Notes: generated from the sequence alone by a model not told the origin. Positions 38,411 to 46,660 are shown, counted from the first letter of the stretch. The stretch: 47,718 nucleotides of DNA from Candidatus Omnitrophota bacterium (GCA_023819035.1 JAMWCL010000005.1:1-47718), one strand, 5' to 3'. Program-made: numbers and translations.

Positions 38411-39586
38411 ATGCGGATAGAAAGAATAATTGCTCAGCGCTTAAAAGATATAAATCCCTCACCAACTTTAGCAATCACTGCAAAGGCAAAAAAACTAAAA
38501 CAAGAGGGAAAAGATATTGTAAATTTTGCAGGTGGCGAACCTGATTTTGATACCCCATTATTTATTAAACAAGCAGCAATTGAAGCGATAAATTCAGGGT
38601 TTACTAAATATACCCCTTCCACAGGAATCCCTGAATTAAAAAAACTTATCTCTGAGAAATTCAAAAAGGATAATTCCTTAGATTATAGCCCAGAGCAGAT
38701 TGTGGTTTCCTGCGGAGCCAAGCATAGTATCTTTAACGCCTTACTGACCTTAATAAATCCGCAAGATGAGGTGCTTATCCCTTCTCCCCATTGGGTAAGT
38801 TATCAAGAGATGGTTAAGATATGCGAAGGTATACCCAGATTTATTCCTACTTCTGCAGAGGATAATTTTAAGATTAATATCAAGCAGTTAGAAAGATATA
38901 TTGGTAAAAAAACAAAACTTCTGATCTTAAATAGCCCTTCAAATCCTACTGGTTGCGTTTATAATTTGGATGAATTAAAAGAGATTTCTTCCTTGTGTGT
39001 GGAGAAAAAGATCTTTGTCATCTCGGATGAGGTATATGAGAATTTCATCTATGATAACCATAAACATATATCTATTGCTAGTCTTAATCAAGATATATAT
39101 AATTTAACCATTACCATAAATGGAGTCTCTAAATCCTTTTCTATGACTGGCTGGCGTATCGGTTATCTAGGAGGACCAGTTGAGATTATAGAAGCGATCT
39201 CTAAATTACAGGATCATTCTACCTCTAATCCTACCTCTATTAGTCAAAAGGCAGCATTGATTGCATTAAGTACTAATAATAAATTTCTCATAGAGATTAA
39301 AGAAGAATTTCAAAAAAGACGCGATTATTTAGTATCCAGACTTAAAAGAATAAAAAAATTAAGTTTTGTTATCCCCGAAGGTGCTTTTTATATATTCTGC
39401 GATATTACAAAAACAGAACTAGATTCTTTAACCTTTGCTAATCGGTTACTAGAGGAGGCAATGGTTAGTGTTATACCCGGCAAAGATTTTGGCAGTGACA
39501 ATCATATCCGGATAAGCTTTGCTACTGATATAGAACAGATAAAAAAAGGAATTGATAGATTAGAAGAATGGATTAATAAATTATAA
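38411..39586 (+). CDS. Aspartate aminotransferase-like PLP enzyme (class I/II)
   Basis: A 391-residue fold-type I aminotransferase, probably making aspartate from oxaloacetate and glutamate or the reverse. It has SPSNPTGCVY for substrate and cofactor binding, the PLP lysine Lys241 in SKSFSMTGWRIGY, and the C-terminal arginine in IRISFATD. Aromatic substrates are also possible within this subgroup. It begins 10 bases after rplQ without a visible terminator or promoter. Together with malate dehydrogenase and isocitrate dehydrogenase downstream it fits 2-oxoglutarate and oxaloacetate metabolism. Confidence 0.88.
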   Translation: MRIERIIAQRLKDINPSPTLAITAKAKKLKQEGKDIVNFAGGEPDFDTPLFIKQAAIEAINSGFTKYTPSTGIPELKKLISEKFKKDNSLDYSPEQIVVSCGAKHSIFNALLTLINPQDEVLIPSPHWVSYQEMVKICEGIPRFIPTSAEDNFKINIKQLERYIGKKTKLLILNSPSNPTGCVYNLDELKEISSLCVEKKIFVISDEVYENFIYDNHKHISIASLNQDIYNLTITINGVSKSFSMTGWRIGYLGGPVEIIEAISKLQDHSTSNPTSISQKAALIALSTNNKFLIEIKEEFQKRRDYLVSRLKRIKKLSFVIPEGAFYIFCDITKTELDSLTFANRLLEEAMVSVIPGKDFGSDNHIRISFATDIEQIKKGIDRLEEWINKL

Positions 39587-39600
39587 ATCTTACGGAATAA

Positions 39601-40854
39601 ATGTCTAAGACAATTGCTGAAAAAATACTCAGTGCTCATGCGGGTTGCGACTTAAAAGCAGGTGATTTTGCTATCTGTAAGGTTGATTTTACTTTTAGTC
39701 AAGATGGAACATCAAATATTATTATTGACCGCTTAGAGGAACTTAAGGTTAAAAAACTTAAAACCAGATTTTGCATGGTAATTGACCACAACGCCCCTTC
39801 ACCTAATGAGGGGGTTTCTAAGGTTCATAAAAGGATGCGTCAGTTTGCCAATGATTATCAGGTAGAACTCTATGATATTGGCTGCGGTGTATGCCATCAG
39901 GTTATTCCGGAATCAGCCCAGATACTTCCGGGAGATTTAGTATTAGGCGCAGATTCCCATACCTGTACATATGGTGCATTGGGTATATTTTCTACAGGGG
40001 TTGGTTCTACGGATTTAGCTATTACTTTAGCTACTGGTAAAAATTGGTTTAGGGTTCCTGAAACAATTAAAATAATTGTTAAAGGTAATATACCCAAGGG
40101 TGTCTTTGCTAAGGATATAATCCTTCATATTATAAAAAAAATAAAAGCCGATGGAGCAACCTATAAGGCAATAGAATTTGCGGGAGAGGTAATCAATAAA
40201 TTAGATATGGATGGTCGCTTTACTATCTCTAATATGGTTGTAGAGATGGGGGCAAAGGTAGGTTTTATGCCTTTTGACAAAAAGACTCTTTTCTGGTATA
40301 AAGAAAGGGGCTGTTCAGTTAAAAGGATAAAACCCGTTGTTGCAGATAATGATGCTAATTATAGCCAGATCATAGAATTTGATATATCGAACTTAAAACC
40401 ACAGGTTGCCTGTCCTCATAATGTAGATAATGTGATCTCAGTGGATGAACTAAAGAATATTAATATAAATGAAGCATTCTTAGGCACCTGTACAAATGGA
40501 AGATTGCAGGATTTAAAGATTGCCGCCTCTATATTAAAATCACGTAAAGTTAAAAAAGGTGTAAAATTTATTATTGCACCTGCTTCACGTAAGATTTTAC
40601 TGGAAGCAATTAAATTAGGTTTAATTGAAATATTTATTAAGGCAAGGGCGGTAGTAGTTGCTCCTGGTTGCGGACCATGTGTAGGTACCCATAACGGTAT
40701 CCCTGCGGATGGAGAGGTGGTTATCTCTACCGCAAATAGAAACTTTAAAGGTAGAATGGGAAATCCTAAGGCTTTTATATATTTGGCATCACCAGCCACA
40801 GTTACTGCCTCAGCAGTTGATGGAAGAATCTCCGATCCTCGGAAATATTTATAA
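39601..40854 (+). CDS. Aconitase/3-isopropylmalate dehydratase-type hydro-lyase, large subunit
   Basis: A 417-residue iron-sulfur hydro-lyase of the LeuC/homoaconitase branch. Cluster cysteines are Cys297 (GTCTNGR), Cys357 and Cys360 (APGCGPCVG). GADSHTCTYGALG and the TTGKNWFRVPE-like block ATGKNWFRVPETI are typical. The family includes isopropylmalate dehydratase, homoaconitase and two-subunit aconitases. With an isocitrate-type dehydrogenase and malate dehydrogenase nearby, and no leuA, I infer aconitase activity. The small subunit is at 41925, with pilT between. A biochemical test would be needed to choose. Confidence 0.85.
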   Translation: MSKTIAEKILSAHAGCDLKAGDFAICKVDFTFSQDGTSNIIIDRLEELKVKKLKTRFCMVIDHNAPSPNEGVSKVHKRMRQFANDYQVELYDIGCGVCHQVIPESAQILPGDLVLGADSHTCTYGALGIFSTGVGSTDLAITLATGKNWFRVPETIKIIVKGNIPKGVFAKDIILHIIKKIKADGATYKAIEFAGEVINKLDMDGRFTISNMVVEMGAKVGFMPFDKKTLFWYKERGCSVKRIKPVVADNDANYSQIIEFDISNLKPQVACPHNVDNVISVDELKNININEAFLGTCTNGRLQDLKIAASILKSRKVKKGVKFIIAPASRKILLEAIKLGLIEIFIKARAVVVAPGCGPCVGTHNGIPADGEVVISTANRNFKGRMGNPKAFIYLASPATVTASAVDGRISDPRKYL

Positions 40855-40869
40855 AAAGGAGGATAGAAA

Positions 40870-41916
40870 ATGGAAATCAAGGAGCTACTTTTATTATGTA
40901 TCGAAAAGAAGGCTTCTGATATCCATATTACGGAAGATGAACCGCCCATATTAAGAATTAATGGAAAATTGATTCGTACAAATCTTCCTGTATTAGAAAG
41001 AAATGAATTAAAAAAGATGATTTATAGCATTTTAACAAGTACTCAAAAGGAGGTATTTGAAAGAGATCTGGAACTGGATTTTTCTTTAGCTCTTCCGGGG
41101 TTAGATAGATTTAGGGTAAATATACATATGCAAAGAGGCTCGGTGGAAGCAGCATTTAGACGCGTTCCTTTAAATATACCTAGCCTTGAAGAACTAGGTC
41201 TTCCTCCCATTGCCATTGAGTTAGCCCGTAAACCCAATGGTTTAGTTTTAGTTACCGGACCTACAGGAGTAGGTAAAACCACAACTTTGGCAGCAATGAT
41301 TAATTTGATTAATCATGAAAGGGAATGTCTTATCGTCTGTATTGAGGACCCCATTGAATTTGTATTTACCAATAAAAAGAGCATCATTAAACAAAGGGAG
41401 GTCTATTCAGATACCCATAGTTTTGCAGAAGCACTAAGACATGCCTTAAGACAAGACCCCAATGTAATTGTGGTGGGTGAGATGCGAGACTTAGAAACTA
41501 TCTCTACCACCCTTACCGCTGCAGAAACCGGTCATTTAGTCTTAGCCACCTTACATACCCCTGATGCACCTCAGACCGTAGAAAGAATTATTGATGTATT
41601 CCCTCCTCATCAACAGCAACAGGTAAAACTACAACTAGCAGATTCTCTTCAGGGGGTAATCTCCCAACTTTTACTTCCTCGGGCAGATGGACAAGGACGC
41701 ATTCTTGCTACCGAAATAATGATTGCCACCCCGGGTATAAGAAATCTTATCCGTGAACAAGAGATCGAACAAATCCCTACCCTGATGCAAACAGGTGCAC
41801 AATATGGCATGAAGACTATGGATAAGTCCTTAAAGGAACTATACCAGGCAGGTCTAATTACCTTAGATGTAGCAATGTCTAAGGTTAAAAATATTGATGA
41901 ATTTAAACAATTATAG
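40870..41916 (+). CDS. pilT: PilT/VirB11-type twitching ATPase
   Basis: A 348-residue AAA-like secretion ATPase that powers type IV pilus retraction. It has an N-terminal PAS-like domain (LLLLCIEKKASDIHITEDEPP), Walker A GPTGVGKT at 130-137, an Asp box CIEDPIEF, Walker B VIVVGEMRD, and the His box GHLVLATLHT. The C-terminus AEIM-like ATEIMIATPGIRNLIRE is PilT-type rather than PilB. No other pilus genes are near. It sits between the two subunit genes of the aconitase-type enzyme, an odd place. A GGAGGA (40858-40863) precedes its ATG. Confidence 0.93.
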   Translation: MEIKELLLLCIEKKASDIHITEDEPPILRINGKLIRTNLPVLERNELKKMIYSILTSTQKEVFERDLELDFSLALPGLDRFRVNIHMQRGSVEAAFRRVPLNIPSLEELGLPPIAIELARKPNGLVLVTGPTGVGKTTTLAAMINLINHERECLIVCIEDPIEFVFTNKKSIIKQREVYSDTHSFAEALRHALRQDPNVIVVGEMRDLETISTTLTAAETGHLVLATLHTPDAPQTVERIIDVFPPHQQQQVKLQLADSLQGVISQLLLPRADGQGRILATEIMIATPGIRNLIREQEIEQIPTLMQTGAQYGMKTMDKSLKELYQAGLITLDVAMSKVKNIDEFKQL

Positions 41917-43527: not shown

Positions 43528-44454
43528 ATGAAGATCTCTATAATTGGCGCAGGTAATGTTGGTGGTATGACTGCACTGCAGTTAGCCCAAAATAGAATAA
43601 ATAAGATAATCTTAATAGATAAATTATTAGGTTTAGCCGAAGGCAAGGCGTTTGATTTAGAGGATGTCAAAGCACTTTTAAAGCTTGATTATGATATCGA
43701 AGGTACGGATGACTTTGAAAGTATAAGGGATTCTGCAATTATAATAATTACTGCGGGTTTTCCCCGTCAGCCAGGGATGACTCGTGAGGAGCTCTTAAAT
43801 AAGAATGCTACGATAGTTAAGGAGATAGCTTTAAATATAAAAAAATTTGCTCCTGAATCTATAGTAATTGTAGTTACTAATCCTTTAGATGTAATGACCT
43901 ACCTGGTTTTAAAGATAACGGGTTTTAATCCTAAAAGAATATTAGGAATGGGAATAGGTTTAGATACCGCCAGATTTATAAATCTTATTAGTAAAAAACT
44001 AAATGTTTCTGTTTTAGATATCGAAGCCTGTGTAATAGGCAATCACGGTGAGGCAATGTTACCCTTATCAAGATTCACAAATATAAAAGGGATTCCTTTA
44101 GAGGAATTCCTTGAAGAAAAAGATATTGAAGAGTTAGTTAAAAAGACTGTCGAACGAGGAAAGGAGATTGTCCAACGTTTAGGTACTGGGAGTGCTTATT
44201 TTGCACCTTCCCTGGCTATAACCTCTTTAGTAAAAGCCATTGTTAAAGATGAAAAGCGCATTTTGGGAGTAAGCGCCTATTTAGATGGCCAATATGGGCT
44301 AAAGGATATCTGTATCGGTGTTCCTTGTCGGATAGGTAAAGAGGGCATAGAAGAGATTATCCAGTTAGAATTAAACAGAAAAGAAAGGGAATCTTTTTTA
44401 AAATCCGCAGAATCAATCCGTACACAAATCAAAAGCTTAGATATTAATGTATGA
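43528..44454 (+). CDS. mdh: Malate dehydrogenase
   Basis: A 308-residue NAD-dependent enzyme of the LDH-like malate dehydrogenase group. GAGNVGG at 7-13, the specificity loop FPRQPGMTR with Arg80 and Arg86, Asp146/Arg149 in GLDTARF, and catalytic His173 in GNHGEAM. The Arg pair argues for malate over lactate. It interconverts malate and oxaloacetate and overlaps the next gene by eight bases. Confidence 0.92.
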   Translation: MKISIIGAGNVGGMTALQLAQNRINKIILIDKLLGLAEGKAFDLEDVKALLKLDYDIEGTDDFESIRDSAIIIITAGFPRQPGMTREELLNKNATIVKEIALNIKKFAPESIVIVVTNPLDVMTYLVLKITGFNPKRILGMGIGLDTARFINLISKKLNVSVLDIEACVIGNHGEAMLPLSRFTNIKGIPLEEFLEEKDIEELVKKTVERGKEIVQRLGTGSAYFAPSLAITSLVKAIVKDEKRILGVSAYLDGQYGLKDICIGVPCRIGKEGIEEIIQLELNRKERESFLKSAESIRTQIKSLDINV

Positions 44455-45751
44455 TCTAGCAATAATCGGCGCAGGTTGGGCAGGATTTAGTGCAGTCATA
44501 AAAGCCAAAGAAGCAGGGCTTAAGGTTATCCTTATCGAAAAAGATAAATTAGGAGGAACCTGTTTAAATTCTGGCTGTATCCCCACCAAGGCCCTTATTC
44601 AGTCGGCAAAAGTCTTTTCTTTAATTAAAAAATCTTCTCGCTTTGGAATCGAATTAGATAATCCCCGCATAAACCTTTCCTCTATTCAAGAAAGAAAAGA
44701 AAGGATTATTCAACAGCTTAAGAAGGGTATGGAGCTTATTCTTAAAGGGGTTGAATTCGTCAATTCTCCTGCAGAGCTTATTTCTCCTGATCAGATAAAA
44801 ATTAATGATCGCAAGATCGAAGCTAGGTTTATCCTCTTGGCTACTGGCTCAAAGCCTATGGAACTACCTAACTTAAAATTTGATCACAAAAAAATCATCT
44901 CTAGTGATGATATCTTAAATCTTAAAGATATACCTAATTCACTTTTAATTATTGGAGGAGGAATCATCGGTTGCGAGTTTGCCAGTTTATTCTCTTTTTT
45001 AGGAACTACAGTCTCTATTGTAGAACTTATGCCTCAACTTTTGCCTGGTCAAGATTACGAAGTAGCCAAAAAACTAGAGGTTATCTTTAAAAAAAGAGGG
45101 ATAAAAATAAATACCAATACCGATGCTACTAAGGTTAATCTTTTAGATTATGATTTGGTCTTGCTTTGTATTGGCAGAATCCCGAATATCCATAATCTTG
45201 GTTTAGAGAAAATTGGGATAAAATTAGAGAAAAATAAGATCTTTGTTGATGATTACCTAAGAACCTCTATAGCAAATATTTACGCAGCAGGAGATTGCAC
45301 AGGAAAGATTATGCTTGCGCATTTTGCCAGCTTTCAGGGAACAAAAGCAGTTTATAATATAATTAATTCTTGCAATCCTAAAAAGGTAGAAAAAAGTAGT
45401 ATTCCTAACTGTATCTTTACTGAACCAGAGATAGCCAGTGTAGGAATAACTGAACAGATTGCTCAAGAAAAAAACTTAGAGATTAAAATAAATAAATTTG
45501 ACTTCTTAGGTTCGGGTATGGCACATATATTGGATGAAACCGAGGGATTCGTCAAGGTAATCTCGGATATAAAAACTGATCGCATATTAGGTGCTTCCAT
45601 AATTGGCCCAAAGGCTACTGAGCTTATTAGTATCTTTACTTTAGCTATAGAATCTCAACTTACTACCAACCAGATTAAAGAAATCATCTTCGCCCATCCC
45701 ACACTCTCCGAAGCTGTCTCCGAAACATTTAAGAAAAACTATGGAATCTAA
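44447..45751 (+). CDS. lpdA: Dihydrolipoamide dehydrogenase (E3)
   Basis: A 434-residue FAD disulfide oxidoreductase. FAD loop GAGWAG at 8-13, redox cysteines Cys39 and Cys44 in GGTCLNSGCIPTKA, NAD loop GGGIIGCEFASLF, second FAD block YAAGDCTG, and the C-terminal HPTLSEAV with the His-Glu pair. It reoxidises dihydrolipoamide bound to 2-oxoacid complexes or the glycine cleavage H-protein. Somewhat short for the family. No E1 or E2 gene is near; the only lipoyl carrier is the small protein at 46357. Confidence 0.92.
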   Translation: MYDLAIIGAGWAGFSAVIKAKEAGLKVILIEKDKLGGTCLNSGCIPTKALIQSAKVFSLIKKSSRFGIELDNPRINLSSIQERKERIIQQLKKGMELILKGVEFVNSPAELISPDQIKINDRKIEARFILLATGSKPMELPNLKFDHKKIISSDDILNLKDIPNSLLIIGGGIIGCEFASLFSFLGTTVSIVELMPQLLPGQDYEVAKKLEVIFKKRGIKINTNTDATKVNLLDYDLVLLCIGRIPNIHNLGLEKIGIKLEKNKIFVDDYLRTSIANIYAAGDCTGKIMLAHFASFQGTKAVYNIINSCNPKKVEKSSIPNCIFTEPEIASVGITEQIAQEKNLEIKINKFDFLGSGMAHILDETEGFVKVISDIKTDRILGASIIGPKATELISIFTLAIESQLTTNQIKEIIFAHPTLSEAVSETFKKNYGI

Positions 45752-46388
45752 GATTTTTGATTTAGGGTTGGTCGATTTTGCTTCTGCCCGGAGATTCCAA
45801 CAGGAGATCTTCCAGCAGGTTAAAGATGGTATCTTAAAATCTGCTTTAATTATATGTTCCCATTATCCCGTAATTACCTTGGGAAGAAATTATAAAGAAC
45901 AAAATATAAAGGTTAATCTCCAAAAATTAAAGAAGATGAATATAAAGGTAGTTAAGACAGAAAGGGGTGGGGATGTAACCTACCATGGACCAGGCCAGTT
46001 AATTGCTTATCCTATTTTTAATCTTGTTTACTTAAAAAAAGATATCCATTGGTATTTAAGGGCATTAGAAAAGTTAATAATCGATGTTTTAGCAGAATTT
46101 GGTATTTTTGCCAGGAGAATCCCTCGGCTTACTGGAGTATGGGTAAAAGAAGATAAGATTGCTTCCATAGGAATCGCCATTAAAAACTGGGTCACCTTTC
46201 ATGGATTAGCAATTAATGTAAAAGAAGATGACCTTTTTAATTTTTCCTTGATTAGACCTTGCGGAATGGATATAATAATGACATCGGTAGAATCGGTTTT
46301 AAAAAAAAGAGTCTCGATTGATGAGGTTAAACTTGTTTTAACCAGGAGATGGCAAGATGACCAAGGTAATCTTACCCGAATTGGGTGA
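45741..46388 (+). CDS. lipB: Lipoyl(octanoyl) transferase LipB
   Basis: A 215-residue enzyme moving octanoyl from acyl-carrier protein to lipoyl domains. RGGDVTYHGPGQL at 75-87 is the family signature; the catalytic pair is Lys139 (DKIASIGIAI) and Cys174 (IRPCGMD). It overlaps lpdA by 11 bases and the lipoyl protein by 32, so all three are probably translated together. lipA, which would insert sulfur, is not in the window. Confidence 0.95.
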   Translation: MESKIFDLGLVDFASARRFQQEIFQQVKDGILKSALIICSHYPVITLGRNYKEQNIKVNLQKLKKMNIKVVKTERGGDVTYHGPGQLIAYPIFNLVYLKKDIHWYLRALEKLIIDVLAEFGIFARRIPRLTGVWVKEDKIASIGIAIKNWVTFHGLAINVKEDDLFNFSLIRPCGMDIIMTSVESVLKKRVSIDEVKLVLTRRWQDDQGNLTRIG

Positions 46389-46593
46389 GGGAATTGAACA
46401 GGCAACTATATCATTTTGGTTTGTACAGGAAGGCCAAAGAGTAAATGAAAAGGATGACCTAGTAGAGTTAACTACCGATAAAGCCACCTTTAATCTCCCA
46501 TCACCCTGTAGTGGTGTTCTTACCCAAATCTTCTTCCGCGAAGGCGACACAGTAAATATTGGAGAGGTATTGGCAATTATTGAGGAAGAATAA
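46357..46593 (+). CDS. Free-standing E2-type lipoyl domain protein
   Basis: A 78-residue protein that is only a lipoyl domain: LPELGEGIEQATI at 6-18 and the attachment loop TTDKATF with Lys42, followed by the closing SPCSGVLTQIFFREGDTV. It looks like the first domain of a pyruvate or 2-oxoglutarate dehydrogenase E2, not a GcvH. The stop is genuine and is followed by a terminator, so it is not a truncated E2 cut by the window. It starts inside lipB, after AGGAG (46343-46347). It may be a carrier for an undetermined complex using the E3 and LipB encoded just upstream. Confidence 0.85.
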   Translation: MTKVILPELGEGIEQATISFWFVQEGQRVNEKDDLVELTTDKATFNLPSPCSGVLTQIFFREGDTVNIGEVLAIIEEE

Positions 46594-46611
46594 TATAAGT
46601 CTTTAAGAAGT

Positions 46612-46650
46612 AAAACACCCTTTTAATGGTCGAGGGTGTTTTTTATTTTT
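46612..46650 (+). terminator. Rho-independent terminator ending the 38-kb gene run
   Basis: AAAACACCC (46612-46620) pairs with GGGTGTTTT (46634-46642) around a 13-base loop, and a T-rich tail extends to 46650. It is the only clear intrinsic terminator I see from 8746 to this point. Confidence 0.85.
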
Positions 46651-46660
46651 TAGATAATTC

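Follow-up and report, generated by a model that had tools for sequence, protein, structure and literature searches.

Lipoic acid is usually held to serve the 2-oxoacid dehydrogenases, the glycine cleavage system and, more recently, sulfur oxidation by sHdr systems. We analysed a stretch of 47,718 nucleotides (nt) from Candidatus Omnitrophota bacterium JAMWCL010000005.1 (the window, to whose + strand all coordinates refer), in which three genes encode a dihydrolipoyl dehydrogenase (E3), the octanoyltransferase LipB and a complete lipoyl domain of 78 amino acids (aa). This last protein, the carrier, is of the type found in the acyltransferase component (E2) of 2-oxoacid dehydrogenases. It belongs among the free-standing lipoyl proteins, as a new form of them: its way of working resembles that of an E2, a GcvH or an LbpA, but it is none of the three, each of these identities failing on a defining feature that we tested. 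We tentatively see in the locus a dedicated lipoyl-carrier module whose carrier would be an NAD(H)-linked dithiol electron shuttle, a reading that we hold to be somewhat short of probable.

Among described systems, the carrier shares fold, size and a lysine in a TDKA hairpin with the E2 lipoyl domains of Thermoplasma (2l5t) and of B. stearothermophilus E2p (1lab). Its profile matches E2 lipoyl domains at E = 4.4e-38 (9y7v) and 9.6e-24 (2l5t), with a TM-score of 0.80 to 2l5t. In contrast to an E2, it has no linker, subunit-binding domain or acyltransferase core, and there is no E1 in its genome. The true E2s found in relatives carry the motifs TDKAQVEV and NQKAVAPI, whereas the carrier has TDKATFN with a conserved Phe45. 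GcvH is likewise free-standing, and is oxidised by E3 as the carrier would be, but at about 125-130 aa it is longer, and its gene lies between those for GcvT and GcvP; the carrier matches Pfam Biotin_lipoyl and not GCV_H. Relatives with glycine cleavage have a separate true GcvH of about 128 aa between those two genes and most of them keep the carrier too, which rules out the carrier as a substitute for GcvH.

LbpA of the sHdr systems is also a solo lipoyl protein outside the carbon 2-oxoacid complexes, but it is GcvH-like, has two conserved cysteines in most lineages and has its own LplA in the hdr cluster (PMC6067878). The carrier is E2-like, is encoded beside LipB, and has no invariant cysteine among the carrier sequences compared. 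We noticed no hdr genes and no LplA dedicated to the carrier in the 40 neighbourhoods that we read, although no genome-wide search for hdr genes was made. In the mycobacterial Lpd-DlaT-AhpD-AhpC chain, an E3 and a lipoyl domain carry electrons from NADH, but the domain is part of a real E2, DlaT (PMC12028322), while the carrier stands alone. Finally, the GcvH-L/SirTM lipoyl-macrodomain operons resemble our locus in giving a lipoyl carrier dedicated operon partners; their carrier is GcvH-like (PMC4518038), and near the carrier of Omnitrophota we noticed neither sirtuin nor macrodomain genes. The module and its signals are as follows.

44447..45751, + strand: dihydrolipoyl dehydrogenase (E3, Lpd), short form, 434 aa; TIGR01350, 481.7 bits (cut-off 408.8)
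45741..46388, + strand: LipB, octanoyl-ACP:protein octanoyltransferase, 215 aa; TIGR00214, 150.3 bits (cut-off 83.55)
46343..46347, + strand: AGGAG, likely ribosome binding site of the carrier gene, within lipB; direct reading
46357..46593, + strand: free-standing E2-type lipoyl domain (carrier), 78 aa; PF00364, 66.7 bits (cut-off 22.1)
46480..46482, + strand: codon of Lys42, predicted lipoylation site in TDKATFN
46602..46654, + strand: intrinsic terminator, hairpin and T-tract; RNA fold -18.7 kcal/mol, z = -5.15

The original prediction, made from the sequence of the window, had described three overlapping genes that end at a terminator, and the open reading frames agree with it: E3, LipB and carrier follow one another over 44447-46593, with overlaps of 11 nt between E3 and LipB and 32 nt between LipB and the carrier, and the malate dehydrogenase gene upstream (end 44454) overlaps E3 by 8 nt. 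A simple terminator scan missed the hairpin, since the loop exceeds 8 nt; direct folding found it.

The carrier had been described as an E2-type domain with Lys42 and nothing more, which the closer analysis bears out. It covers 72 of the 73 positions of the PF00364 profile, and AlphaFold2 models it as a lipoyl domain that is closed and complete (mean pLDDT 97). E2 lipoyl domains rank first in a sequence profile search of the PDB and are also the closest solved folds, with TM-scores of 0.80-0.97 for the best matches. Lys42, which we predict to be lipoylated, sits in VELTTDKATFNLPSP (motif TTDKATFN). K42, T40, F45 and W21 are identical in all 149 carrier sequences counted, a number that takes in pattern-biased loci and some duplicates from the same genome; residue counts from the contig-scan loci are biased because the scan pattern was T[DE]KA[TA]FN[LVI]P. 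That bias does not affect the loci that came from whole-genome protein searches, and among them exceptions are few: the lysine is missing from one carrier (G090), and position 46 varies in a few sequences. The degenerate G090 homologue (L086:8196-8438), which reads ISSAENTYS, occupies the usual place in the operon of a genome that has glycine cleavage.

Close pairs of carriers have dN/dS values of 0.06-0.10, which indicates strong purifying selection and, together with the conserved active sites, rules out a decaying remnant. A biotin carrier is ruled out by the motif, TDKA rather than the AMKM type, and by a separate AccB with EAMKLMN in the same genome.

The active sites of the two enzymes are intact as well. 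In E3, Cys39 and Cys44 (CxxxxC) and the His417/Glu422 pair are invariant in 34 of 34 relatives, and the NAD-site feature, the NAD-type Glu193, is present in 33 of the 34; the best PDB match is 1ebd, a lipoamide dehydrogenase. In LipB, the catalytic Cys174 and Lys139 are kept in 32 of 33 sequences.

What distinguishes the locus is the lack of the usual users of lipoate. The original prediction spoke of a lipoyl module without E1 or E2, which is supported in the window's own genome, a draft that is 92.6% complete: neither an E2 core (PF00198) nor an E1 was found there, the only matches to PF02779 (Transket_pyr) being DXS and a split transketolase, and GcvP and GcvT are likewise missing. LipA is present, on contig C5 (345 bits). 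Only two proteins of this genome match PF00364, the carrier and AccB, and the carrier is the module's only known lipoyl target. We extended the search to 98 related genomes, largely drafts. A match to the carrier occurs in 82 of them (in G094 it falls on the lipoyl domain belonging to a true E2), LipA exceeds its cut-off in 75 and GcvP in 27. An E2 core occurs in just two, its absence thus extending to 96 of the 98; G096 has a true E2 and keeps the solo carrier as well. In a closed Omnitrophota genome, the PF00364 matches are the carrier, AccB and four weak ones that are not E2-like in score or length (three of these, in reading frames of 305-342 aa, are presumably membrane-fusion proteins), so that there is no E2 among its lipoyl domains. 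On these two results we reject incomplete assembly as the cause of the missing E2.

A split 2-oxoacid dehydrogenase encoded elsewhere, which had been suggested as a user of the carrier, is not supported, given the identity of the genome's Transket_pyr proteins and the lipoyl domains of the closed relative; nor did we find an E2 core missing its lipoyl domain, or a standard complex that clearly uses the carrier. Some relatives have a third Transket_pyr protein, which we rejected as an E1: by reading, five of its six contexts show half of a split transketolase-like pair. Such pairs lie mostly in sugar or polysaccharide clusters, and the sixth context (G104) is an E1-like pair in a cluster of this kind.

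Published metabolism is consistent with the absence of a lipoate-dependent dehydrogenase: the tricarboxylic acid (TCA) cycle of Omnitrophota is described as a horseshoe ending at 2-oxoglutarate (PMC8542988), and two classes use pyruvate:ferredoxin oxidoreductase with Pta/Ack (PMC10066038). Many members are described as fermentative anaerobes (PMC8542988, PMC10066038). The main texts of these two surveys contain no word starting with 'lipo'. Our literature searches found nothing joining Omnitrophota with dihydrolipoamide dehydrogenase, and 'single lipoyl domain protein' led to LbpA.

The module is also no peculiarity of one contig. We read 40 neighbourhoods, drawn from the window's family and from further families both within its order and elsewhere in its class, and in most of them the order E3-LipB-carrier recurs. 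The full operon order is conserved in most as well; it typically runs RpoA, L17, aminotransferase, aconitase large subunit, (PilT), aconitase small subunit, isocitrate dehydrogenase, malate dehydrogenase, E3, LipB, (LipA), carrier. Neither this operon nor its spread among relatives had been noted in the original prediction, which had proposed a search for conserved neighbours. All named relatives from the contig scan are Candidatus Omnitrophota, including the closed chromosome of Ca. Velamenicoccus archaeovorus (L183), and two others are titled only 'bacterium'. The recurrence of the three-gene set, with the constraint on the carrier, goes beyond chance and is not a local oddity. One variant of the operon (L214, G046) has LipB and a diverged carrier, with no E3 between malate dehydrogenase and LipB.

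Natural losses offer a further view of the module. Two relatives (G084 and G087) retain the aconitase small subunit, isocitrate dehydrogenase and malate dehydrogenase, have no glycine cleavage, and have lost E3, LipB, the carrier and LipA; because all four went together, they look like one module, and because the dehydrogenases stayed, the module is separable from the adjoining TCA genes. Five others (G004, G071, G083, G085 and G094) lost the carrier and kept LipA, and these have glycine cleavage and/or a true E2. Judging from these cases, lipoate synthesis is kept only beside a remaining lipoyl acceptor. The argument uses assembled losses only, which are few and come from draft genomes; apparent losses in G005, G007, G052 and G058 were rejected as contig-end artefacts where the locus runs off the contig.

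Sequence comparison thus supplies the parts, their active sites, the missing partners and, in the informative cases, joint retention or loss, and on this basis we propose a mechanism. LipB would put octanoate onto Lys42 of the carrier, LipA would insert two sulfurs to give lipoyl-Lys42, and E3 would oxidise or reduce the resulting dithiol with NAD(H). The sequences support the capacity of LipB and LipA to make lipoyl-Lys42 and of E3 to exchange its electrons with NAD(H). The carrier could then shuttle two electrons (dithiol/disulfide) between NAD(H) and a thiol-dependent acceptor or donor. We favour electrons as the load, having found no enzyme that would load acyl or aminomethyl groups. The leading candidate for the partner is the thioredoxin pool, because a second conserved operon has lipA beside trxB, with trxA also among its genes.

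Contig C5 (L039:12057-14490) of the same genome, and L195-L214: lipA/trxB operon

At the level of the order, this operon reads TrxA, Pta N-terminal-like, Pta, AckA, PanD, Def, a 65-aa Cys-rich protein (which has no NCBIfam match), LipA, TrxB, PEPCK and PurC, with gene names taken partly from profile matches and partly from reading. The gene trxB adjoins lipA in 20 of 21 lipA loci, that of our genome included (TrxB 381 bits, TrxA 128 bits), and trxA lies in the same cluster in 17. This adjacency is our only pointer to a partner of the carrier, and a weak one; an electron load and a part for thioredoxin are both tentative readings. More specifically, an E2-derived solo lipoyl protein might be, in much of Omnitrophota, the lipoyl analogue of thioredoxin: a redox carrier in solution that passes electrons from NADH, by way of its dedicated E3, to dithiols of the cell; this fuller version we consider doubtful, though possible.

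Several observations weigh against the electron shuttle. That the carrier works for some other complex, as had been suggested, agrees with the data, but we identified no partner protein, and the proposal is built from sequence. The adjacency of lipA and trxB is seen within one order and may be due to chance, lipA being found next to lipB and the carrier in other families. Since the genome has a canonical TrxB, the module is not needed as a replacement for thioredoxin reductase, and we rejected that role. G046 keeps the carrier and LipB, and its E3 was detected neither in the operon nor elsewhere. The DKA motif matters for reductive acylation by E1, and since the carrier has kept it, there is still room for acyl transfer by an unrecognised enzyme.

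This last point leads to the best of the alternatives, which we nevertheless regard as unlikely: the carrier could accept acyl groups from an unrecognised 2-oxoacid decarboxylase other than E1 (for example, the genome's ferredoxin oxidoreductase of the VorB/Kor type), a second enzyme taking the acyl group and E3 reoxidising the dithiol with NAD+. The E2-type fold and the conserved DKA motif would suit such a role, the operon makes 2-oxoglutarate and oxaloacetate, the genome has a VorB-type subunit (449.5 bits), and in relatives lipA shares one operon with pta and ackA. However, the genome has neither an E1 nor an acyltransferase core, and isocitrate and malate dehydrogenase remain where the module was lost (G084, G087). 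Ferredoxin oxidoreductases are not known to require lipoate.

Less likely again is defence against peroxides or disulfides by a chain of the mycobacterial kind, NADH -> Lpd -> DlaT -> AhpD -> AhpC, with a lipoyl domain freed from its E2. The mycobacterial chain likewise begins with Lpd and a lipoyl domain (PMC12028322), and thioredoxin-system genes cluster with lipA; but no AhpC or AhpD was noticed in the neighbourhoods, although no genome search for them was made, and the description of many Omnitrophota as fermentative anaerobes does not favour it. Of slightly lower standing still is a relay, in which lipoate is built on the carrier and then handed to other proteins or released. In Bacillus subtilis GcvH relays lipoate in this way for LipL (PMC6067878), and the carrier adjoins LipB and, in several families, LipA too. 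On the other hand, in most genomes with the carrier no other lipoyl acceptor was found, relatives with glycine cleavage hold an LplA-like protein and LipA in the glycine cleavage cluster itself, and a relay has no need of E3. That the carrier belongs to an ordinary pyruvate/2-oxoglutarate dehydrogenase or glycine cleavage system whose remaining genes fell into assembly gaps would be conceivable for a draft genome, but is very improbable given the missing E2 core in the relatives, the lipoyl domains of the closed genome, the separate GcvH, and the fact that all carriers read terminate at a stop codon with no E2 continuation.

Lipoate synthesis, the octanoyltransferase, E3 and a dedicated carrier are retained in a widespread environmental lineage whose genomes are small and whose TCA cycle is incomplete, mostly without 2-oxoacid dehydrogenases or glycine cleavage. 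Because the machinery is kept mostly without its usual users, we predict a further lipoate-dependent reaction, which suggests that lipoic acid has a further role in Omnitrophota beyond the complexes known to require it. If true, the redox-carrier reading would give protein-bound lipoate a use distinct from those in sHdr sulfur oxidation, glycine cleavage and the 2-oxoacid dehydrogenases. For annotation, E3 and lipoyl matches in such genomes are not enough to assign 'pyruvate/2-oxoglutarate dehydrogenase'.

Some genomes with glycine cleavage have unusual arrangements. In G083 and G081 (96-97% complete) glycine cleavage genes are present and no dihydrolipoyl dehydrogenase was detected; another flavoprotein may serve as L protein. 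In L283 (G056:C164:1-4467) E3-like, GcvT and GcvP sequences follow one another in a single uninterrupted frame of 1430 codons or more; this may encode a glycine cleavage fusion protein, or the contig may be foreign or chimeric (its end looks chimeric). In our own genome, an OorD-like ferredoxin and the VorB-type 2-oxoacid:ferredoxin oxidoreductase subunit adjoin dxs (L003:2417-3479, C16). The genes of the conserved operon that precede the module in the window are listed below.

38411..39586, + strand: aspartate-type aminotransferase, first gene of the conserved operon; PF00155, position conserved
39601..40854, + strand: aconitase/isopropylmalate (IPM) isomerase-type large subunit; NF001614 558.9 bits, TIGR01343 537.9 bits, both above cut-off
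40870..41916, + strand: PilT-type ATPase, between the aconitase subunit genes; TIGR01420, 468.3 bits
41925..42428, + strand: aconitase/IPM isomerase-type small subunit; TIGR02087, 184.1 bits
42435..43523, + strand: isocitrate dehydrogenase-like protein, NADP-type residues; PF00180; best model NF006529, below its cut-off
43528..44454, + strand: malate dehydrogenase; NF004863, 399.3 bits

The Lys/Tyr/Val NADP-type determinants of the isocitrate dehydrogenase-like protein are conserved, and the placement of the PilT ATPase gene between the genes for the large and small aconitase-type subunits is kept across most of the order.

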